A stretch of 64,000 nucleotides of DNA. It comes from Pseudovibrio axinellae. Lineage in GTDB: Bacteria; Pseudomonadota; Alphaproteobacteria; Rhizobiales; Stappiaceae. Where the stretch lies: contig NZ_FOFM01000004.1 of assembly GCF_900110875.1 (NCBI RefSeq), positions 124,001 to 188,000 of the forward strand, written 5' to 3'. Of this stretch, positions 35,125 through 44,379 are shown in pieces. The position numbers and the translations under genes are program-made. Under the pieces are notes generated by a model, which was not told where the DNA came from, ran no database searches, and saw only the letters and a list, made by a program, of their open reading frames with translations. Within the stretch, counting starts at the first letter, position 1; every line of letters begins with the position of its first letter.

Positions 35125-35841
35125 GTGGAGAAGAGCGCCGACGCGTTCCGCACAATTAGTGAAGTAGCAAGTGAACTGGATTTACCGCAGCATGTTTTGC
35201 GGTTCTGGGAAACACGATTTACACAGATCAGGCCTTTGAAGCGAGGTGGTGGTCGACGCTACTACAGACCTGACGACCTTGAGCTTTTGCGCGGTATCCG
35301 CCATTTGCTCTACGGGGAAGGCTACACGATTAAAGGCGTGCAACGTATTTTGCGTGAGCAAGGTGTGCGCGTCGTTATGGATGTCTGGAAAGAAGGGGCT
35401 GGTGTTGTAATTCCAGCCTCGGCGAGTACAGCTGTACCGGCGGGCGTTGCCCCAGATCCTTCCCTGGTTCGTGAGGGCTCAGTTCACAGCGCGGCAGAAG
35501 CTGTAATGGAACAAGCTGTTCTAGTGCCTGCAAGGCAGGTGTTTGAACCGCAGGAAAACTGGGTTGCTGACAGTTCAGGGGCTGACATGCAAGCGGAATT
35601 TCCGCTTGAAGATGAAACTGAACCTCAGATGCCATTGCCTTCCGGTTTGTTGCCGGATGACGAGCCTTCGACCCACGGGAAGAGTGGACATGGAGCCTTT
35701 GGCTTTATGGACCGTTTGATGGGCTCTGACAGAGATGAGGCTTCTGGCGCGAAAGGGTTGTCCAAGGACAATGTAGACCGGCTGCAATCCACGCTCTTTG
35801 AGTTGTTGGAATGTAAACGTATGCTAGATCAGGCGCGCTGA
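35125..35841 (+). CDS. MerR-family transcriptional regulator
   Basis: The 238-residue protein has an N-terminal MerR winged helix (about residues 8-80) with [20 protein letters not shown] and [13 protein letters not shown] long, Pro- and Glu-rich region follows, then a conserved C-terminal block ending [18 protein letters not shown]. Proteins of this kind always follow ihfA in Hyphomicrobiales, and their regulon is unknown. The start is a GTG at 35125. The 3' half of the gene is repeated, with changes, at 37452. In relatives a tRNA-Pro gene follows closely; here 7 kb of accessory DNA lies between them. Confidence 0.9.
35466..35802 (+). repeat. Copy 1 of the merR 3' repeat (337 bp)
   Basis: This part of merR encodes the C-terminal half and is matched without insertions or deletions by 37452-37788. 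The two copies differ at many positions, mostly third codon positions. Copy 1 is the intact, expressed version. Confidence 0.9.
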
Positions 35842-36552: not shown

Positions 36553-36572
36553 ATAAAGTAACTATACTTTAT
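36553..36572. promoter_or_regulatory. Palindromic operator between the VOC and HxlR genes
   Basis: ATAAAGTA at 36553-36560 and TACTTTAT at 36565-36572 are exact reverse complements separated by ACTA. The right arm ends in the hxlR start codon. The position in the 37-base divergent gap fits autoregulation and control of the VOC gene by the HxlR protein. Confidence 0.65.
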
Positions 36573-37107
36573 GGACATTACGACACTTGTCAAGCTCACG
36601 TCTCGGGCTTGGTCTCTAAATATTCTGGCTCTCTTGCATTCCGGCGTTCCCGGCAGACAGGCACCGCTGCTGGCTGCATCGGGCGCTGGCCGCACGTCGT
36701 TTTCGGCAAGTCTTGAGCATCTGACCCAGCTAAAACTACTGGAGAGGAACCCTGGTCACGGTCACCCGCTGCGCCCCGAGTTCCGCTTGACCCCGGCAGG
36801 CATCAAGGCTGCCGAAATCGCCAGCAAGATTGTGACTGCAGTTCCGAATGAGAAGGAGTTCGCCCTGCTGCGCAAAAGCTGGACAGTTCCCATTTTAGCA
36901 CTCACCGCTGCTCCGCAGCGCTTCTCGGGAATAAGAACGAACCTGGTACCAATCACTGATCGCGCGCTGTCTACCTCGCTGGTTCAACTGGAAGAACGAG
37001 AGTGGATCAAACGCGACATCAATACTGCTGCCCGCGTCCCATTCCCCACCTACTGTGCGGCAAACGCCGGACAGCAAATTAACTGTGCAATCGATCTACG
37101 GGTGTGA
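36571..37107 (+). CDS. HxlR-type winged-helix transcriptional regulator
   Basis: The 178-residue protein has an HxlR-like winged helix: WSLNILALLHSGVPGRQAPLL begins the DNA-binding part, and SFSASLEHLTQLKLLERN holds the recognition helix. A second winged-helix-like half follows (WTVPILALTAAPQRFSGIR, then LSTSLVQLEEREWIKRD), so the protein looks like a tandem of two HxlR domains. HxlR proteins often sense quinones or aldehydes. It is divergent from the VOC gene, its likely target. It has no ribosome site in the usual place, and the start codon lies in the operator, suggesting a leaderless transcript. Confidence 0.78.
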   Translation: MDITTLVKLTSRAWSLNILALLHSGVPGRQAPLLAASGAGRTSFSASLEHLTQLKLLERNPGHGHPLRPEFRLTPAGIKAAEIASKIVTAVPNEKEFALLRKSWTVPILALTAAPQRFSGIRTNLVPITDRALSTSLVQLEEREWIKRDINTAARVPFPTYCAANAGQQINCAIDLRV

Positions 37108-37451: not shown

Positions 37452-37815
37452 GGTTCGTGAGGGCGCAGTTCACAGTGCGGAATAAGCTGCAATGGAACAG
37501 GTGGTTTTAGTGCCTGAAAGGCAGGTGTTTGAACCGCATGAAGACTGGGCTGTTGACAGTTCAGGGACTGACATGCAGGCGGATTTGCCGCTTGAAGAAG
37601 AAGCTGAGCCTCAAATGCCATTGCCTTCCGGTTTGTTGCCGGATGACGAGCCTGCGACCCACGGGAAAAGTGGACATGGAGCCTTTGGCTTTATGGATCG
37701 TTTGATGGGCTCTGATAAAGATGAGGCGTCTGGCGCAAAAGGGTTGTCCAAGGACAATGTAGACCGGCTGCAATCCACGCTCTTTGAGCAGTTGAAGCTA
37801 TCAGTGGTGCCTTAG
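37452..37815 (+). pseudogene. Truncated, diverged second copy of the merR 3' half
   Basis: The 337 bases from 37452 to 37788 align without gaps to 35466-35802 of merR. An in-frame TAA lies where merR reads Ala-Glu near 37485. The tail beyond 37788 is unrelated, so the normal C-terminus (ELLECKRML...) is replaced by QLKLSVVP. The HTH region is absent. Many changes are silent or conservative, which points to a copy that diverged as a working gene in another lineage before it became a fragment here. It could still be read from the ATG at 37492 as a 107-residue peptide, but I see no ribosome site that supports this. Confidence 0.85.
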
Positions 37816-38166
37816 AGAGGCACTAATCATTATTTTTTCTAAGGAAACTGGCAATTACTGACTGGACGTACTCGTTCACGCCACGAATGAGTCAATTTTT
37901 GCTCGCTAAACCATGTAAACTATCAAGAAGAAGCCAAAGTCTAGCCTTTTTTCACTGAAGAATAGGAGGGGATGGGCGAGTCCTCTCGGTTTGTTAGTGT
38001 TTCTAGGTTTTTGATTGATCGTGCTTTGATGAAGTTTATTCATGTTTTGCCGAGGATCATTTCTTACGCTTAAAGTGCGGGCTCTATCTGTTGTGTTGAG
38101 GTGATTTTTCTGTGGCACGGGGGGTTATTCTAATGGATCCGGCCTGGAATATAAAAGTGGGTGAAT
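37816..38166. other. Gene-free stretch before the MazG-like gene
   Basis: About 350 bases, rather AT-rich, contain no supported gene on either strand. It probably holds the promoter for the MazG-like gene. Confidence 0.35.
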
Positions 38167-38472
38167 ATGGTAACCATTGAGAGCAGTGCGAGCATTACCG
38201 CTTGGGGCGAGAGGACTTTTGGTCAGGTTTCTGATCTTACTGCATTAATTGAGCGGGCAAGGGAAGAGCTGGAAGCTTTGCAGGTGAGCGTGGAAAATGG
38301 CGATAGCACGCGCGACGTTGCATCTGAAGCAGCTGGTATAGCGATTTTGTTGCACCGCCTTGTGGGGCTGCATGGTGTTGAGCTTTCTTTCGCTATTGAT
38401 GAAAAGATGGCGCGCAACCGCACACGCATCTGGTCTTTAGCCGGTGATGGAACTGGGCGCCACGTCGCTTAA
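38167..38472 (+). CDS. MazG-like nucleotide pyrophosphohydrolase domain protein
   Basis: The 101-residue protein resembles the small MazG-like all-alpha NTP pyrophosphatases. After an N-terminal segment (WGERTFGQVSDLTALIERA), the helix with REELEALQVSVENGD carries the E-x-x-E half, and SEAAGIAILLHRLVGLHGVEL matches the second conserved helix. It ends with the typical DEKMARNRTRIW. In standard MazG the second helix has E-x-x-D; here SEAAGIAI keeps the Glu but lacks the Asp, so activity is uncertain. The ATG at 38167 follows GTGGGTG; a GTG at 38161 is possible. It lies outside the tRNA repeat of the neighbouring element. Confidence 0.65.
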   Translation: MVTIESSASITAWGERTFGQVSDLTALIERAREELEALQVSVENGDSTRDVASEAAGIAILLHRLVGLHGVELSFAIDEKMARNRTRIWSLAGDGTGRHVA

Positions 38473-38612: not shown

Positions 38613-38658
38613 TGGTCGGGTAGGCCGGATTTGAACCGACGACCCCTTCACCACCAGT
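38613..38658. repeat. att-like direct repeat, left copy
   Basis: The 40 bases 38613-38652 are identical to 42900-42939, the 3' half of tRNA-Pro with its CCA, and the match continues after one mismatch to 38658. Here the rest of the tRNA is missing, so this is the displaced attachment-site copy. An imperfect hairpin (38660-38680) directly follows. Confidence 0.9.
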
Positions 38659-38752
38659 TTAGGCTTGGTAGTCCAACCTACTGTTTTCATTGAAGTAAAA
38701 CCCTCTATATCATCCCATTTTTCCCAATCAAACCAAGTCAACTAAAATCAGC

Positions 38753-38770
38753 TTGGGACGTATGTCCCAA
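38753..38770. repeat. Palindrome near the left end of the tRNA element
   Basis: TTGGGAC and GTCCCAA are perfect inverted arms around GTAT. A close relative with the same arms is found at 42842-42859 near the other end. They could be binding sites for an element-coded protein. Confidence 0.6.
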
Positions 38771-38805
38771 ACTCCAACGCCTCGGAAACTTTGGCAAGAA
38801 CAAAA

Positions 38806-39030
38806 ATGCCGATGCTCGGTAATCTCCTCGCTTTTCTGTCCGCTCTTTCAAAGGCCCTTTCGGGTCTTTTTTCATATCTGGAGCGACGCGACCTCAAGAA
38901 ACTTGGGGCCTATGAGCAGCAAGAGCGGGCCAATGTGGAGGGGGATATAACCCTCTCCAGCATTGATGAGGCGGCAAGTGAAGTCGGCTCTATGACGCCA
39001 CAAGAAAAGCTAGAGGAGGCCCTGAAGTGA
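38806..39030 (+). CDS. Putative inner-membrane spanin-like phage protein
   Basis: The 74-residue protein has one N-terminal hydrophobic segment (LLAFLSALSKALSGLFSYL) and a charged helical remainder ending in MTPQEKLEEALK. Size, single membrane anchor and the following lipoprotein gene resemble the Rz-type spanin arrangement of phage lysis cassettes. The stop overlaps the next start (GTGA). The start at 38806 or 38812 is uncertain, as the ribosome site is weak. The spanin role is inferred from layout only. Confidence 0.5.
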   Translation: MPMLGNLLAFLSALSKALSGLFSYLERRDLKKLGAYEQQERANVEGDITLSSIDEAASEVGSMTPQEKLEEALK

Positions 39031-39251
39031 CAAGGTTTCTTCTGTGCTTTCTATTCGCTCTTGGGGGCTGTGAAAGCTTGAGAATTCCAGAACCCGTTCA
39101 GACTGAATGGTGCCAGGCAACCAAGCTTATTCTTGAGAGGTCAAAACATGATCTCAAATTCCAAAAGGATGAGTGGGTGCATATGAGGCCACCAACACAA
39201 GACATGCTCTTAATTACCAAAAAATCCTATCAGGAAAGATGCCCTCCATGA
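39027..39251 (+). CDS. Small lipoprotein, possible outer-membrane spanin
   Basis: The 74-residue protein starts MTRFLLCFLFALGGC, a short lipoprotein signal with a lipobox Cys at residue 15. The rest is small and soluble. It begins with a GTG that overlaps the previous stop, and its own stop overlaps the next ATG (ATGA), so the three small genes are translated together. The position between a membrane-anchored protein and a holin-like protein fits the o-spanin place in a lysis module. There is no sequence match that I can name. Confidence 0.55.
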   Translation: MTRFLLCFLFALGGCESLRIPEPVQTEWCQATKLILERSKHDLKFQKDEWVHMRPPTQDMLLITKKSYQERCPP

Positions 39252-39436
39252 ACAAGCCTACTGATCTGGCAACAATACCAATTGCGGGCGGGGCGGTTAT
39301 GTCTGGCTTCGACGATTGGGCCTCATGGCTTGCGCTTGAGATCCAGCCATATGTTGCCTTGCTTGGCGCCGCGTGGCTGATTTTTAAACTTGCCACCGGA
39401 GTTTACGACCGGCTGAGCGGGCAAGATAAGCCGTGA
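39248..39436 (+). CDS. Holin-like small membrane protein
   Basis: The 62-residue protein has one clear membrane helix (YVALLGAAWLIFKLATGVY) with a polar N-terminus and a short charged C-terminus. Its size and place after two spanin-like genes suggest a phage holin or anti-holin. The ATG overlaps the preceding stop. A terminator follows 16 bases after the stop, closing the three-gene unit. No endolysin gene is present. Confidence 0.5.
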   Translation: MNKPTDLATIPIAGGAVMSGFDDWASWLALEIQPYVALLGAAWLIFKLATGVYDRLSGQDKP

Positions 39437-39451
39437 CAAACACACTCAATG

Positions 39452-39477
39452 GCCCGCTGCTGATTGCTGCGGGCTTT
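39452..39477 (+). terminator. Terminator after the lysis-like genes
   Basis: GCCCGC at 39452-39457 pairs with GCGGGC at 39469-39474, followed by a short T run. Confidence 0.65.
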
Positions 39478-39480
39478 ACT

Positions 39481-39810
39481 ATTCTTCGCATATATTGAGG
39501 CGGTGCATGCCAGCAAATCCCGTACCAGACAAGATACTATTGGAAGCGGTTAAAGCGCTTAGATATAGGGTGTGTTAAAGATTTCATCTCAGTGGATTGC
39601 CGGAGGGTATGCGACAACTAATCCCTTTTCGATTGAAACAGCAGGATTCTAAGGTCAAAGTATTACTTGTAGAATTGGGTATGCAGATTCCGTTAGTCTC
39701 TTGCAAAACTAAGAGCGACGAAGTACCTTCACCGCTGCAAATCTGACTTCGATATTTACAAATTAATCGCGGCCTCTAAGGCTCAAATATACGATTTAGT
39801 CACAGGTAAA
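39481..39810. other. Gene-free stretch before the hydrolase-TPR gene
   Basis: These 330 bases contain no supported gene on either strand. They separate the closed lysis-like unit from the hydrolase-TPR gene and must hold the latter's promoter. Confidence 0.35.
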
Positions 39811-41052
39811 ATGCTTTCAAAAATAGACAAAATTAAAGTTGATGATATCGACCAACTCCTGTTTACGAAGCACACGAAAGGTTCTAGCCGCTTGCTGATT
39901 TATTTCAGTTCGGCGGATGCGAAGAATATTCAGGGTGTATCAAAGTTCTCTCCCTACGATACTGATATTCTTTTTGTGCGTGACCCACGTCGCGGCTGGT
40001 ACAATCTCCCGATTGATGGGCTATCGAGCGATGCAGACGAGTTGCATGATCAATTAGAACGCCGTATCGGAAATTATCCTAGGGGGAGTATCACTACATC
40101 AGGTAGCTCTATGGGTGGGTATGCGGCCCTTCTGTTTGGGATAAAGTTGGGTGTTGGCCGGATTGTATCAGTCGGTCCGCAGATTGTGCTTCATCCTGAG
40201 ATACCGCACTCCCCTAAAATTCCGGTCAAATACAATGATCTATCGAAGCTTATAGAGACAAAGACTGAGAAAACGCAGATAGACATCTGGTACGGTGCTG
40301 AGAGCGGTCTTGACCTTTATAACATCCTGCGCGTCCGCAACACAGGTAGTGTTCGCCTTCATGCTGTGCCAGGCGCAATGCATAACATCCTTTCCACGTT
40401 CAAACGCCGTGGGCAGATGGAATCCTTTTTCGAACATACTGCCACTGGAAGTAATTTCAGTGTACCGGAACAGACAGTTAGAAACGCTGACATCATCGTT
40501 GAAGCAGCTCATAAGTTCTTTCGTGAGAAGAATTATCAAGATACGATTGATACTCTTTTGCCTGTGGCTGACGATATATGCTTGTCAGCCGTTTATTTTC
40601 TAATCGGCAATTCTCATTTTCGTATGGCGCAATACAAAAAGGCTCGCGTGTTTTTTGAGCGGGCGGCGACGGTCTCAACCAAGAATTATGATGCGCACTA
40701 TTACTTAGGTTTGGCGCTAGTAAAGCTCGGCAAAGACGTGGCTGCAGAACGATCATTCGCACGTGGGCTTGAAACCTACCCCTCCCCGAATGGAGTTCGC
40801 CTTGCAAAACTAGCTTCAGCGCAGTATCGCATTGGCTCTTTCGAGGATGCCATAAATAACCATCTGAAAGTTGTTGAGTTGGACAGCCGTCAAACAAAAT
40901 CGCACTTCGAACTTGGAGTGATGTTCATGAAGCTTGGCCGCGATCAAGAAGCGATGATGCACTTTAGTCACCACCATAAAAGTCAACCAGACTTTCTGCC
41001 GACAATAAGAAAGCTTACGCAACTTAGAAAGAAAATCGCGTCGGATGCATGA
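39811..41052 (+). CDS. Alpha/beta serine hydrolase fused to TPR repeats
   Basis: The 413-residue protein joins two parts. Residues 1-205 look like an alpha/beta hydrolase: the nucleophile elbow is TSGSSMGGYAALLFG with Ser100, a possible acid is Asp168 in YGAESGLD, and His191 lies in PGAMHNI. Residues 220-413 are TPR-like repeats, for example AVYFLIGNSHFRMAQYKKARVFFERA and AHYYLGLALVKLGKDVAAERSF (each read in part). There is no signal peptide, so it is probably cytosolic. It lies in the tRNA element without phage-gene partners and looks like cargo. Similar combinations are known near polysaccharide genes, which begin 2 kb away, but the substrate is unknown. Confidence 0.72.
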   Translation: MLSKIDKIKVDDIDQLLFTKHTKGSSRLLIYFSSADAKNIQGVSKFSPYDTDILFVRDPRRGWYNLPIDGLSSDADELHDQLERRIGNYPRGSITTSGSSMGGYAALLFGIKLGVGRIVSVGPQIVLHPEIPHSPKIPVKYNDLSKLIETKTEKTQIDIWYGAESGLDLYNILRVRNTGSVRLHAVPGAMHNILSTFKRRGQMESFFEHTATGSNFSVPEQTVRNADIIVEAAHKFFREKNYQDTIDTLLPVADDICLSAVYFLIGNSHFRMAQYKKARVFFERAATVSTKNYDAHYYLGLALVKLGKDVAAERSFARGLETYPSPNGVRLAKLASAQYRIGSFEDAINNHLKVVELDSRQTKSHFELGVMFMKLGRDQEAMMHFSHHHKSQPDFLPTIRKLTQLRKKIASDA

Positions 41053-41181
41053 AAAGTTCTCAACTGCAGTTGCTCAGTAATAGTGCTGCTACTAAGGCCG
41101 AATAGCCTAAAGCCTGTATTGCGGGCGAATTATCAAGATAGGTGAGGGCGTCGAAACGAGCCCTGCCGTTAGACCTAAAGC

Positions 41182-41206
41182 AGCCCTGCCTAGAGCGGGG
41201 CTTTTT
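41182..41206 (+). terminator. Terminator before the metallophosphoesterase gene
   Basis: AGCCCTGC pairs with GCGGGGCT (one G-T pair) with a short loop, followed by TTTTT. It stops transcripts about 130 bases after the hydrolase-TPR gene. Confidence 0.75.
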
Positions 41207-41229
41207 CATATCTGGTATATGGAGGCTCA

Positions 41230-42479
41230 ATGCCTACACCTCCCTTAACGGACGAACTATGCCTTGAAACCGCAAGGGCTTTTGCGGAATACGGTAATAA
41301 GGCTGCTGCAGCAAAAGCCCTCGGGATTCCGCGCAGTACATTCAACAATCGCGTTAAGTCCGCTGCTTTGAGAGGGTTAGTTGACCTCTACCCCAATGTA
41401 CCGGATGGCTTTGAAGTTTCCTCTCAGAGCGTCACAACAGACGGGCAGGGCACGGTTAAGGCTCGCAGTACCAGAGTAACCCGCTCCAGCGGTGAGCCGT
41501 TTGAATTACCCGCTGATATGGCGATTAAGGGTGTGTCTGCTCTTGTAGATGGTGACGGGAACCTCAAGCAAAAGTGGATCAAGACTGACCGCAAAGCCGA
41601 GGTTGCACATGCAGCACTCAAGGCCATGCTGGACGGGTTCAAAGATGAGGTTCCCAGAAGCGCCCCTTTGCCATTGCCAGAGAGCACAAATGATAAGCTT
41701 GTCTCAACCTACATCTGCACTGACTACCATATGGGTATGATGGCTTGGGGGGAAGAAACCCAAGTTGCAGACTGGGGCCTGAAACTAGCTGAAGAGTTGC
41801 TTATCAAGTGGTTTGGGTCTGCAATTGCATCGGCACCGGATTCACAAACAGCCATTTTTGCGCAACTTGGAGATTTCCTGCACTGGGACGGCATGGCAGC
41901 GGTAACGCCAACCAGTCACCACTTGCTAGACGCTGACACACGGTTTCAAAAGCTGGTACGGGCGGCAATACGGGTCCTTCGTCAAATTGTCTCCATGCTC
42001 CTGCAGAAGCATGAGCGTGTGCACTTACTCATGGTGTCCGGCAATCACGACATGTCCAGCTCGGTTATGTTGCGCGAACTGCTGGCAGCGCTCTACGAGA
42101 ATGAGCCGCGTGTAACCGTAGACCAAACCTCAGACCTGTTCCATTGCTATGAGCACGGCAATACATCCCTGTTTTTTCACCACGGAGACAAGCGCGGTGT
42201 AGCTCAGGTTTCTACAACGCTTGCCGCAAAATATCGGGAAGTGTTTGGCCGGACCAAATACAGCTACGCGCATATAGGCCACTTCCACCATAAAGACGTG
42301 CTGAAGGCCAAAGAAGACAACCTGATGGAAAAGTGGAGCAGCACCGAACGCTTGCGCCACCAGACGCCCATTCTGCAACTTCTGGCTACGTCTCGGGAAG
42401 GTCAGCGCAAGTCATCACCTATCACGCCGATTACGGCGAAGCGGGCAGGGTTACAATTACACCGGAGATGGTTCAATGA
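41230..42479 (+). pseudogene. HTH-calcineurin-like metallophosphoesterase gene with a frameshift near the 3' end
   Basis: The N-terminus is a helix-turn-helix (AAKALGIPRSTFNNRVK). From about residue 155 the metallophosphoesterase motifs follow in order: TDYHMG, GDFLHWDG, SGNHDM, HHGDKRG and GHFHH. After the A run at 42329-42332 the reading frame turns into unlikely sequence running to 42654. In the other frame the same DNA reads VEQHRTLAPPD...QVITYHADYGEAG and ends at a TGA overlapping the next ATG at 42476. One missing A or two extra A residues would explain this. It is either a pseudogene or a base-calling error in a homopolymer; the catalytic domain is complete either way. ATATGGAGG precedes the start. 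Confidence 0.8.
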
Positions 42480-42823
42480 AGCAGGATCAAACATTAAAGG
42501 CAGACGCCGGAAAGCTGCAAATGCGTTTGCTATTTGCCTATCTCTGGGGGCCGCTTGCTCAAGTGTGCGCTGTCCTGACTTTTGGTGCCCAAAAATACAG
42601 CGCCAACAGCTGCCAGAGCGTGGAGAGGGAAAGAAACTGGGATGCTCTTTATAGACACCTCAGCGCTTTTCATAGCGGGGTATGCAAAGACAAAGAAAGC
42701 GGGCTGCACCACTTGGCACATGCTGCCTGCAATATTCTTTTTCTCTTATGGTTTGAAACTAAAGATCAGACTTTAACAAGGTTCGATACGCCGCCAGTCG
42801 GGCGTAGAAATAAGCCGCAATGA
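42476..42823 (+). CDS. DUF5664 / dATP-dGTP diphosphohydrolase-like phage protein
   Basis: The 115-residue protein resembles the phage DUF5664 family, named as an N-terminal domain of dATP/dGTP diphosphohydrolases. The visible pattern is DAGKLQMRLL near residue 10, AQVCAVLTFGAQKYSANSC near 28, NWDALYRHLSAF near 54 and the metal-type segment GLHHLAHAACNILFLLW near 77. Such enzymes could change the nucleotide pool of the phage. Its ATG overlaps the true stop of the metallophosphoesterase gene, which supports the frameshift call upstream. It is the last gene before tRNA-Pro. Confidence 0.7.
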   Translation: MKQDQTLKADAGKLQMRLLFAYLWGPLAQVCAVLTFGAQKYSANSCQSVERERNWDALYRHLSAFHSGVCKDKESGLHHLAHAACNILFLLWFETKDQTLTRFDTPPVGRRNKPQ

Positions 42824-42841
42824 GTTGTGGAAAATAACCGT

Positions 42842-42859
42842 TTGGGACAAACGTCCCGA
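42842..42859. repeat. Palindrome near the right end of the tRNA element
   Basis: TTGGGAC-AAAC-GTCCCGA has the same arms (one change) and the same four-base spacer length as 38753-38770. It lies about 40 bases from the tRNA 3' end. Confidence 0.6.
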
Positions 42860-42899
42860 GGAGCCACTTTACTTTTTATAGCTAACTCATTGAAATATT

Positions 42900-42945
42900 T
42901 GGTCGGGTAGGCCGGATTTGAACCGACGACCCCTTCACCCCCAGT
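42900..42945. repeat. att-like direct repeat, right copy within tRNA-Pro
   Basis: This is the part of the tRNA gene shared with 38613-38658. It spans the T arm, the variable region and part of the anticodon stem-loop, the usual crossover region of tyrosine integrases. Confidence 0.9.
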
Positions 42946-42976
42946 GAAGTGCGCTACCAGGCTGCGCTACTACCCG
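42900..42976 (-). tRNA. tRNA-Pro(GGG)
   Basis: On the minus strand the 77 bases fold as a full cloverleaf. Acceptor CGGGTAG pairs with CTACCCG, the D stem is GCGC, the anticodon stem CTTCA/TGAAG encloses CTGGGGG with anticodon GGG, and the T arm is GTCGG-TTCAAAT-CCGGC. The CCA end is encoded. The 3' end faces the inserted element, and its last 46 bases are repeated at 38613, so the gene was the integration target. Confidence 0.96.
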
Positions 42977-43110
42977 AACCTTTAAGATACTTGCCCTGGA
43001 TGCAAGACTGCATTTGCAAGTATTCTTTTTTAGAGAGCGATCTAAAGCTGCTCTCTACAACTTTCCTACCTAATTCACGGTGTCTGATCAAGGCTCAAAT
43101 GAGTGTGGTC

Positions 43111-44379
43111 TTATCGTGCTGGTGGAAAACGCCTGTATCTGGAGATACCAGCTTCTGCTGAGATCACAGCCCATAATATACCAAGCAGCAAAAAGTAGTG
43201 ACGCCAGTGGTCGCTGTCAATAATGAAGCTAACACAAGCATGTAGGAGGAAAGCAACATATGTACAGACGATGTATTTTTGCCAGGGAAGTGGTTTAAAG
43301 ACCAACGGCGTTGCCTTAAAAACAGTCCAGAAAATAAGGGTAATATAAGAGAGTCCGCCGAGCCATCCATAGGTTGTAAAGGCTTTGAGGTAGGCGTTGT
43401 GCTCGTCCTCGGGAAAAATGCTGGAAAAGCCACCAGCACCCAGCCCCAATGGCGCTTCTGTGACGAGTGTGAAGCCTTCTCTCCAGCGTCCGAACCGCCC
43501 TAATCGTGCCCCATCATACTCCTGAACTAACTTTGCGCGCTGTGTGAACATCTCAAAGATGGAATCAACAGACAGGAATGCAAGCATCATGATGATGAAC
43601 GCAACACCCGCCAGCCCAAACAAGCCCAGCAACTTCAGGCGTGAGTAGGATCTGCGCTCGTTGATGAACACGAGCAGGAAGACGAGAAGGCTTCCGCCAA
43701 GGGTCATGCCCCATGTTGCACGGGAAAACGAGAGGAAAGCACCGAGCAGTAGAATTAGGAGCAGGACCGCGCTCAATATGTTTTTGCACAGCGGTCTGGT
43801 TAGAATATCGTAGACAATAAAAAGGGTGGGGAGTAGCAGGAACGGGCCATATACGTTTGGGTCTTTAAAGGTTCCCTTGGCGCGTCCGTATAAAGTGAAC
43901 TGATCGTACGCACCTGAAAAGAGGTTGAAGTATCCGGCCAGCGCTAGCAGTGTGGCAAACACTGCGGCAAGCATATAGCCTTTCTCAATCGCCTTGAGTC
44001 GTTCCATATTTGCAGACAAGGTTGCTGCATACAAAATGGATGAAAAGGCCAAGAAGACGGTGACTGCATAAAAGATCACGGCTTCTTTTGTGTTTGATGC
44101 TGCTGGCAGCGCCAAAATACCGCCCAGGATGTAGAAGCAGAGCAGAACCAGCAAGGGCAACTGATCTTTGCGCAACTCAAGCCCCGCGCAGGACCAGCCA
44201 ATCAAAAGAGCGGCAATCAGAAGGTCATAGGGCGCTGGTTCAATCATGACCAGAGCGCTCACAGAAGCTGCCAGAAACAATAGTGACCTTGCTATGGTTT
44301 CTGTGCTGATGATCAGCGGAACATGCCAGAAGGGGCGAGTGTTCTTTACTGTGCTTTGTGAGCGCGGCAGGTCGGTCAA
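43111..44379 (-). CDS. O-antigen ligase / Wzy-like polymerase family membrane protein
   Basis: The 422-residue protein has about eleven membrane helices and the long periplasmic loop typical of the Wzy_C family near residues 270-340. In that loop are RFGRWREGFTLVTEAPLGLG and the conserved EDEHNAYLKAFTTYGWLGG. Such proteins polymerise or ligate polysaccharide repeat units in the periplasm. The first four bases overlap the sugar-transferase gene, so the two are translated together. With its neighbours it most likely is the polymerase of the exopolysaccharide made here. Confidence 0.85.
   Translation of the reverse strand: MTDLPRSQSTVKNTRPFWHVPLIISTETIARSLLFLAASVSALVMIEPAPYDLLIAALLIGWSCAGLELRKDQLPLLVLLCFYILGGILALPAASNTKEAVIFYAVTVFLAFSSILYAATLSANMERLKAIEKGYMLAAVFATLLALAGYFNLFSGAYDQFTLYGRAKGTFKDPNVYGPFLLLPTLFIVYDILTRPLCKNILSAVLLLILLLGAFLSFSRATWGMTLGGSLLVFLLVFINERRSYSRLKLLGLFGLAGVAFIIMMLAFLSVDSIFEMFTQRAKLVQEYDGARLGRFGRWREGFTLVTEAPLGLGAGGFSSIFPEDEHNAYLKAFTTYGWLGGLSYITLIFWTVFKATPLVFKPLPWQKYIVCTYVAFLLHACVSFIIDSDHWRHYFLLLGILWAVISAEAGISRYRRFPPAR

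Follow-up and report, generated by a model that had tools for sequence, protein, structure and literature searches.

The window, by which we mean the whole 64-kb stretch of Pseudovibrio axinellae DNA that was analysed, contains about 4.3 kb flanked by two copies of the 3' part of a tRNA-Pro(GGG) gene. The copies (38613-38658 and 42900-42945) are 46 nt long and differ by one mismatch (98% identity); assuming equal base use, the chance expectation for such a match is about 4e-21 in 64 kb. When the genome was searched with positions 42900-44379 as query, matches were obtained at the two repeat sites only. ARAGORN and Rfam both report one tRNA at the repeat locus, tRNA-Pro(GGG) on the minus strand. 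The 46-bp direct repeat described in the original prediction is thus real, and a tRNA 3' repeat at both ends with an intact tRNA at one of them is the arrangement of a tRNA-integrated prophage. The following features were assigned, with the source of each in brackets.

38613-38658, no strand: attL core, the 3' part of tRNA-Pro(GGG) in a displaced copy of 46 bp with one mismatch (repeat comparison)
38755-38768, no strand: GGGACGTATGTCCC, the left-arm palindrome, at 96 bp from the core and with no GCACTTNACTT-like motif after it (arm comparison)
38806-39030, plus strand: 74-aa ORF, N-terminus hydrophobic by eye; lysis-like by position only (ORF list)
39027-39251, plus strand: 74-aa putative lipoprotein, LGGC lipobox-like by eye; lysis-like by position only (ORF list)
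39248-39436, plus strand: 62-aa holin-like ORF with one hydrophobic stretch by eye (weak G004 relative)
39811-41052, plus strand: alpha/beta-hydrolase-like and TPR protein of 413 aa, probable passenger flanked by the holin-like and phosphoesterase genes (family matches)
41182-41202, plus strand: hairpin resembling a terminator, 3' of the hydrolase-TPR gene and 5' of the phosphoesterase gene (consensus match only)
41230-42476, plus strand: phosphoesterase, phrog_704 (E 1.1e-101), frameshifted near 42330 (PHROGs, relative alignment)
42476-42823, plus strand: dATP/dGTP diphosphohydrolase N-domain protein, PF18909 (E 6e-27), phrog_801 (Pfam, PHROGs)
42844-42857, no strand: GGGACAAACGTCCC, the right-arm palindrome, at 42 bp from the core; the arm motif comes next and agrees at 9/10 positions (arm comparison)
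42900-42976, minus strand: intact tRNA-Pro(GGG), with its 3' part, 42900-42945, as attR core (ARAGORN, Rfam)

As predicted, no integrase family occurs among the matches between the repeats, and no integrase gene adjoining the partial tRNA copy was recognised in the ORF list, Pfam or PHROGs. Without an integrase the element cannot be claimed as an active prophage; a remnant may be without one.

Gene content of the element

The phosphoesterase and the dGTP-type gene belong to phage families, as had been proposed for the latter. A relative of the 474-aa phosphoesterase ORF aligns in one frame up to 42330 and in another frame from 42330 to 42476, placing the last ~48 residues in a different frame. 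The shift thus accounts for both the listed C-terminus of this protein and the overlap with the gene that follows. The frameshift itself could be a sequencing error, the assembly being a draft of 93 contigs. Related phosphoesterases were found in only two of the 15 other genomes of the genus, G004 and G013. The G004 copy lies at the same tRNA, whereas that of G013 sits among tail genes, 130 kb from its tRNA-Pro, and the phosphoesterase alone is therefore no marker of this phage type.

The three short ORFs next to the partial tRNA copy, proposed to be a lysis-like, phage-like trio, overlap one another. None of the three proteins has a Pfam or PHROGs match, none matched in 192 IMG/VR loci, and the first and second have no match in named phages. 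A relative was found for the third member only: a weak one (47% over 34 aa), encoded by the ORF directly 5' of the G004 phosphoesterase (L065). The lysis label thus derives from size, overlap and position, and the trio is a putative lysis cassette.

For the hydrolase-TPR protein, none of the 15 other genomes of the genus yielded a match over the full length. Among named phages the protein has no full-length relative, just four Listeria-phage records that match the TPR part; among viral contigs it has no match, and among genome contigs a single one, again to the TPR part, in a Desulfobacterales MAG. Searching with the N-terminal half separately revealed neither a donor nor a second copy. Its matches among solved structures, to TPR proteins (best E 0.0016) and to lipases/esterases (best E 0.0082), are weak, a match to an 'internal virion protein' was not significant (E 0.078), and an AlphaFold model built without an alignment was set aside (mean pLDDT 41.5). 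An anti-phage defence identity was considered and rejected, as PADLOC-DB holds no known defence family that matches. The hairpin downstream of the gene is one of 10 terminator-like sites that the consensus picks out in the region; shuffles have 4.6 of them (sd 2.3).

Related elements and attachment-site arms

The phosphoesterase end of the element resembles that of Rhizobium phage 16-3, whose annotated order is phosphoesterase, nucleotide genes, attP and, on the other strand, int. The same order, with nucleotide genes followed by a convergent int, is found in phage RHph_TM3_3_14B, and the phosphoesterases of 16-3 and RHph_TM3_3_14B are 44% and 48% identical to that of the window. Read from the sequence, the 16-3 attP contains a tRNA 3' end; the integration target of this phage is tRNA-Pro(CGG). 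In RHph_TM3_3_14B a tRNA-3'-like stretch can be seen by eye before int, although the record annotates its own 'attL' elsewhere. Phosphoesterase and integrase occur together in 8 of 192 IMG/VR loci and are convergent in all eight. The window likewise has a phosphoesterase and a nucleotide gene beside an attachment site. Unlike 16-3, however, it lacks int as well as the early, head and tail genes; no match to the 16-3 head, tail, terminase or repressor families was found in the stretch, and neither the hydrolase-TPR protein nor the trio has a significant match in 16-3 or RHph_TM3_3_14B. The 16-3 attP palindromes also differ from those of the window and lie at other distances. We therefore file the element as a remnant with a 16-3-like layout and not as a 16-3-like phage.

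Integrase-bearing elements occupy the same tRNA elsewhere. In G055, from the same host family, a 29-kb element carries an integrase gene adjoining the partial tRNA copy as well as phage replication genes, both of which the window lacks. Its core has the same inner limit over 46 nt, is one letter off that of the window and extends 17 nt further outward. In G003, from the same genus, the partial tRNA copy is equal for 42 nt and is adjoined by an integrase ORF that is short at its N-terminus and 54% identical to the G055 integrase over the fragment; the two ends of this element sit on different contigs. The integrase type is thus present at tRNA-Pro(GGG) in the family (G055, G041) and as a fragment in the genus (G003). 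None of the six proteins encoded between the repeats of the window matches the G055 or G041 stretches. G004 contains a second remnant at this tRNA, which keeps an endolysin gene, a holin-like gene, the phosphoesterase and a similar right arm; its listed ORFs include no recognisable integrase. Empty sites were found as well: in G006 and G009 nothing is inserted between the endolysin-like gene and the tRNA.

Elements that carry this type of integrase share an arm layout, namely a palindrome followed by GCACTTNACTT, 41-50 bp from the core on the right and 94-96 bp from it on the left. For the window and the compared elements the distances are 42, 42, 42, 41 and 50 bp on the right and 96, 96, 95 and 94 bp on the left, with 95 bp for G041 on recount; those of G055 and G003 are within 1 bp of the window's on both arms. 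An element with a different integrase, in G008, has no such arm palindrome. The right arm of the window has both palindrome and motif, whereas its left arm has a palindrome at the expected spacing without the motif. Eight other arm sites score 7-10 of 10 and the left arm of the window 4/10, although these scores are no independent test because the motif was derived from those same sites. A score of 4/10 is reached by 98% of shuffles of the window's left arm; the weak right-arm score of G004 (7/10) is reached by 8.6% of its own shuffles. The missing motif suggests that the loss begins inside the left arm.

We rejected the palindrome pair as stand-alone evidence, since same-arm pairs within 5 kb are not rare (four in the window) and GGGACN4GTCCC has three sites in the genome, below the four of a backwards control. 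At 56 other integrase loci, palindromes with arms of at least 7 occurred in 9, against 6.6% of shuffles; this is a slight excess, and a palindrome feature of the whole family is weakly supported. A reverse-strand reading near 38746-38795 with integrase-like end residues was considered as a C-terminal integrase remnant and taken as chance, because the gap between the conserved integrase end and the palindrome (~17-18 nt in G055 and G003) does not exist here.

Origin of the element

Loss of the integrase and most other genes is a common fate of prophages. The repeats, the gene content, the 16-3 order and the half-missing left arm site together lead us to consider it highly probable that what survives here is one end of a temperate phage, as a 'grounded' deletion derivative. 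The phage would have entered the 3' part of tRNA-Pro(GGG) by means of a tyrosine integrase, rebuilding the tRNA at attR and leaving the 46-bp copy at attL. The parent would have been ordered attL, int, early and structural genes, lysis genes, phosphoesterase, nucleotide gene, attR. No intact phage combining this trio, the hydrolase-TPR gene and these arms was found, and this parent is accordingly reconstructed from parts. One or several deletions, presumably a single one, would then have removed a span that began just within the left arm and ended shortly 5' of the trio, including int and an endolysin gene that the phage probably once had, and would have retained the phosphoesterase end and a stub of the int-side arm. 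Such an element would no longer be able to excise. The decayed, tRNA-integrated phage origin originally proposed is thus upheld by the integrase-bearing elements with this site and core and by the 16-3-like order, and the decay also by the truncated left arm and the frameshifted phosphoesterase. In the consulted text of PMC6379469, grounded (cryptic, defective) prophages are integrated phages that lack recombinase or attachment function, are decaying and may hold cargo; the element resembles them, with no essential difference seen from that text. The terms tRNA-Pro and attB do not occur in the consulted portion of PMC10460002.

The hydrolase-TPR gene is an unusual passenger, most likely cargo that the phage acquired before its decay. 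If instead it had entered a phage remnant that was already decayed, the stretch would be a composite island in which the cargo, and not the phage, is what has been kept. The G004 holin-like gene abuts the phosphoesterase, whereas in the window the two are separated by 1.8 kb that include the hydrolase-TPR gene; this part has a lower GC content (0.433-0.462), and the hydrolase-TPR ORF is uninterrupted, unlike the frameshifted phosphoesterase. Since neither a donor nor a second copy was found, and one genome cannot tell the timing of the insertion relative to decay, we regard this order of events as improbable.

The idea that the element is a phage satellite, keeping its ends and moved by the integrase of a helper phage, draws on its small size, on the retention of both core copies and both palindromes, and on the visits of this integrase type to the site in genus and family. 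Satellites such as PICI, P4-like elements, PLE and PICMI carry an integrase, a regulator, a primase or packaging-interference genes of their own. No such hallmark gene is among the significant family matches in the stretch, primase, integrase and packaging families included, the motif that makes up half of the arm site is missing on the left, and nothing in the same genome matches this integrase type at more than 32%; on these grounds we rejected the helper-dependent satellite as the main reading and consider it quite unlikely. The frameshifted phosphoesterase also speaks against it, and no second element of this build was found in the genus with the phosphoesterase and the hydrolase-TPR protein or in viral contigs with the latter. 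Similarly doubtful is a live, minimal passenger without integrase, with both cores and enough arm for excision and re-insertion by visiting tRNA-Pro(GGG) integrases, kept for the hydrolase-TPR protein as a surface-modifying lysogenic-conversion function.

An old, non-mobile host locus lying beside a tRNA fragment by chance would fit the unremarkable base composition (0.489 against 0.50 for the window), but it is extremely improbable and contradicted by the genus comparison, in which, for the two genes searched, the set expected in most related strains was absent (hydrolase-TPR full-length in 0/15, phosphoesterase in 2/15), as well as by the phage families of the phosphoesterase and dGTP-type genes and by core and arm sites that match integrase-bearing elements.

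The deletion remnant of a temperate phage is, in itself, an ordinary grounded prophage remnant, at a tRNA-Pro(GGG) locus that has differing occupants across the genus. Its arm-site anatomy can help to separate a deletion remnant from a maintained element without integrase before excision experiments are undertaken. The arm layout, an element-specific palindrome with a shared GCACTTNACTT motif, is a testable lead on what this integrase type binds.

A tRNA-bounded stretch with phage-like genes

The 46-bp direct repeat that the original prediction had derived from the 3′ end of tRNA-Pro(GGG) is real. Sequence comparison within the window shows that its two copies differ at one position. The second of them makes up the 3′ part of an intact tRNA at one end, the sole tRNA detected in the window. 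The six inner ORFs accepted as genes all lie on the plus strand with the tRNA to their right, and thus point toward it, as had been claimed.

38613-38658, attL core copy, 46 nt, one mismatch to the attR copy
38806-39030, 39027-39251 and 39248-39436, plus, trio of short ORFs, the third holin-like
39811-41052, plus, hydrolase-TPR gene
41230-42476, plus, phosphoesterase gene
42476-42823, plus, last gene
42900-42976, minus, tRNA-Pro(GGG) (tRNA detection), with the attR core at 42900-42945

Profile searches assigned the phosphoesterase to phrog_704 (PHROGs, E 1.1e-101) and the last gene to PF18909 (Pfam, E 6e-27) and phrog_801 (PHROGs, E 5.4e-29). The last gene also matched two PHROGs (E 1.4e-24 and 2.9e-17) whose label reads 'endolysin; inhibits RNA polymerase', but because phrog_801 scores better and because of the Pfam label we name it a dATP/dGTP diphosphohydrolase type. 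At E 1e-5, relatives of the phosphoesterase were counted in 2003 of 50,697 phage records and those of the last gene in 384. All three trio ORFs were without family matches in Pfam and PHROGs, and the first two matched nothing in named phages.

Just outside the element, at 38161-38472, a host gene with similarity to dATP/dGTP pyrophosphohydrolases (PF04447; its E of 3e-4 falls slightly short of the cut-off) neighbours the element's own PF18909 gene. Nearby, a 343-bp direct repeat, 91% identical (35466-35808 and 37452-37794), flanks some 1.6 kb that holds a VOC-like ORF and an HxlR-type ORF (36571-37107), both named by eye; in relatives, the HxlR-type stretch has its matches at other places.

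Occupants and integrases of the tRNA-Pro(GGG) site

A tRNA-containing match was present in 16 of 16 genus genomes, including that of the window (G000). Gene-by-gene comparison covered the genomes other than G001, G007 and G010-G013, in which the tRNA matched and the whole right flank did not; gene names at colinear sites were assigned by eye, except for integrases and genes with family searches. The proposed alignment of related genomes revealed two (G006 and G009) in which an endolysin-like gene immediately precedes the tRNA, with no insert between them and no second core copy. The colinear site holds an amidohydrolase gene in G002, G005 and G015 (by eye), GAPDH and MFS genes plus a degenerate core copy with 8 mismatches in G014 (by eye), and an endolysin, a holin-like gene and a 55% identical phosphoesterase in G004. 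In G003 a partial core copy, with an integrase ORF beside it, lies on a separate contig, and in G008 an integrase of a different type adjoins the tRNA. Across the compared loci (L065-L076), one tRNA has varied occupants in the genus: two integrase types, GAPDH with MFS, and amidohydrolase.

G000 is without the DUF2793 and GH108-endolysin genes that relatives have beside tRNA-Pro (named for L066). Elsewhere in G000, DUF2793 relatives lie at C76:234439, C52:79822 and C61:118563, and GH108-endolysin relatives at C52:78942, C76:235817, C76:92802 and C61:116716.

The phosphoesterase and hydrolase-TPR genes are not common in relatives, as they would be at an old, non-mobile locus. Of 41 genomes searched, 3 have a phosphoesterase relative (G000, G004 and G013), that of G013 in a tail-gene region 130 kb away from tRNA-Pro. 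Among the other 15 genomes of the genus, the hydrolase-TPR query found only partial TPR matches (22-29%) in 11 and none in 4.

The G003 integrase ORF (269 aa; phrog_1, E 6.7e-51) adjoins the partial tRNA-Pro copy and is without the N-terminal part seen in its relatives from the wider family, G055 (54%) and G041 (52%), which both adjoin partial tRNA-Pro(GGG) copies. The G055 element (G055:C1:276924-306030) is 29 kb long, and its core copies share 46 nt with the window's inner limit, one letter different, and 17 nt further outward. A family scan of its integrase and six further ORFs matched primase, helicase, Cas4-type exonuclease, Sak4-like annealing, anti-repressor and dNMP kinase families. 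A terminase profile likewise matched the helicase ORF (E 4.7e-15, residues 40-303). Inspection by eye of all listed ORFs, only some of which the family scan covered, showed no head or tail gene. Tyrosine recombinases form a large family, and the integrase query therefore matched 83 of 87 family genomes; at least 47% identity over at least 230 residues was reached, besides G003, only in G041, G055 and G092. The best match of G000 to this integrase type is 32%.

Phage layout and arm sites

In Rhizobium phage 16-3 the annotation runs from tail fibre genes through small genes, the phosphoesterase and nucleotide genes to attP, followed by int on the opposite strand. Rhizobium phage RHph_TM3_3_14B has lysozyme, small genes, phosphoesterase, nucleotide genes and a convergent int, with a tRNA-3′-like stretch ahead of int by eye and attL annotated at another place in the record. 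Among 192 IMG/VR loci (47 matches, the best 80 of 154 and the best 80 of 558 from lists; windows of at most ~21 kb), phosphoesterase and integrase shared a locus in 8, convergent in all 8. Two of these eight integrases share no more than 30-32% identity with the query, and two pairs are apparently the same phage. The last gene was matched in 7 of the 192 loci, the trio and hydrolase-TPR in none. In a prophage of this layout, int and the phosphoesterase lie at opposite ends. The window keeps the phosphoesterase end at attR and has an attL arm without int.

Elements with this integrase type carry a palindrome near the core on each side, followed by a GCACTTNACTT-like stretch.

Arm sites: palindrome-to-core distance in bp; palindrome half-sites; arm motif score out of 10
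Window: right 42, left 96; GGGAC..GTCCC; right 9, left 4
G003 (arms from different contigs): right 42, left 96; GAACA..TGTTC; right 10, left 10
G004: right 42; right 7
G055: right 41, left 95; GGTTCA..TGAACC; right 8, left 10
G041: right 50, left 94 (95 on recount, core copy one base short); GGTTC..GTACC, imperfect; right 9, left 9

Palindrome letters vary among elements, and half-sites match between both arms of each single element. As the motif was derived from the scored sites, their scores count only in contrast to the window's left arm, whose 4/10 is reached by 98% of its shuffles. Several observations speak against reading a deletion into that arm: the two G003 ends come from different contigs; the 7/10 of G004 is a weak score, attained by 8.6% of its shuffles; same-arm palindrome pairs are common as such in the window; arm palindromes at 56 other integrase loci were in only slight excess (9/56 vs 6.6% in shuffles); and the G008 arms, with the other integrase, had no such palindrome. 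The GCACTTNACTT-like stretch and the element-specific palindrome, at near-constant core distances, may represent a candidate binding site.

Probable decay and the passenger gene

Judged from its sequence, the window's left arm seems to be cut just inside the palindrome and joined to DNA from just before the trio. An endolysin-like gene precedes the holin-like gene in G004 and none does so in the window; a deletion that ran from the left arm into the lysis region would account for both the half-missing arm and the absent endolysin. A relative's phosphoesterase aligns in two frames (41401-42330, then 42330-42476), and upstream of the frameshift the residues conserved over five aligned proteins are kept, including the GNHD and GHxH stretches. 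The frameshift could be a sequencing error in this 93-contig draft assembly.

Since the holin-like gene abuts the phosphoesterase in G004, the window's 1.8 kb that carries the hydrolase-TPR gene represents an insertion by comparison with that genome. In the 413-aa protein the TPRs pass the Pfam cut-off, and the hydrolase-like N-half stays under all Pfam cut-offs. Ten of 16 matching proteins of ~355 aa, from the same bacterial family, were aligned with it (20-23% overall identity); they share with it an invariant Ser (GSSMGG), Asp and His. One such protein, when checked, gave a far sub-threshold XcbB/CpsF capsular-polysaccharide match (E 2.9e-4, 20 bits vs cut-off 125). A surface-modifying role in lysogenic conversion is our guess; the fold prediction was not usable (pLDDT 41.5).

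The original prediction offered decay or dependence on a helper. The satellite idea found no support. Decay is the best supported reading, with half of the left arm site missing, no int at attL and the phosphoesterase frameshifted (possibly a draft error). On the decay reading, a temperate phage would have entered tRNA-Pro(GGG) via site-specific recombination, restoring the tRNA, and a later deletion would have removed int along with the greater part of the phage. The remaining stretch would be grounded, with no excision expected because the enzyme is gone and half of one arm site is missing; the passenger gene would be what maintains it, if anything does. Grounded or cryptic prophages are an already described class, according to passages of PMC6379469. 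The element is most likely a new example of this known kind, a grounded prophage remnant, and the varied tRNA-Pro(GGG) occupants and the arm-site layout are more useful by-products than the element itself.
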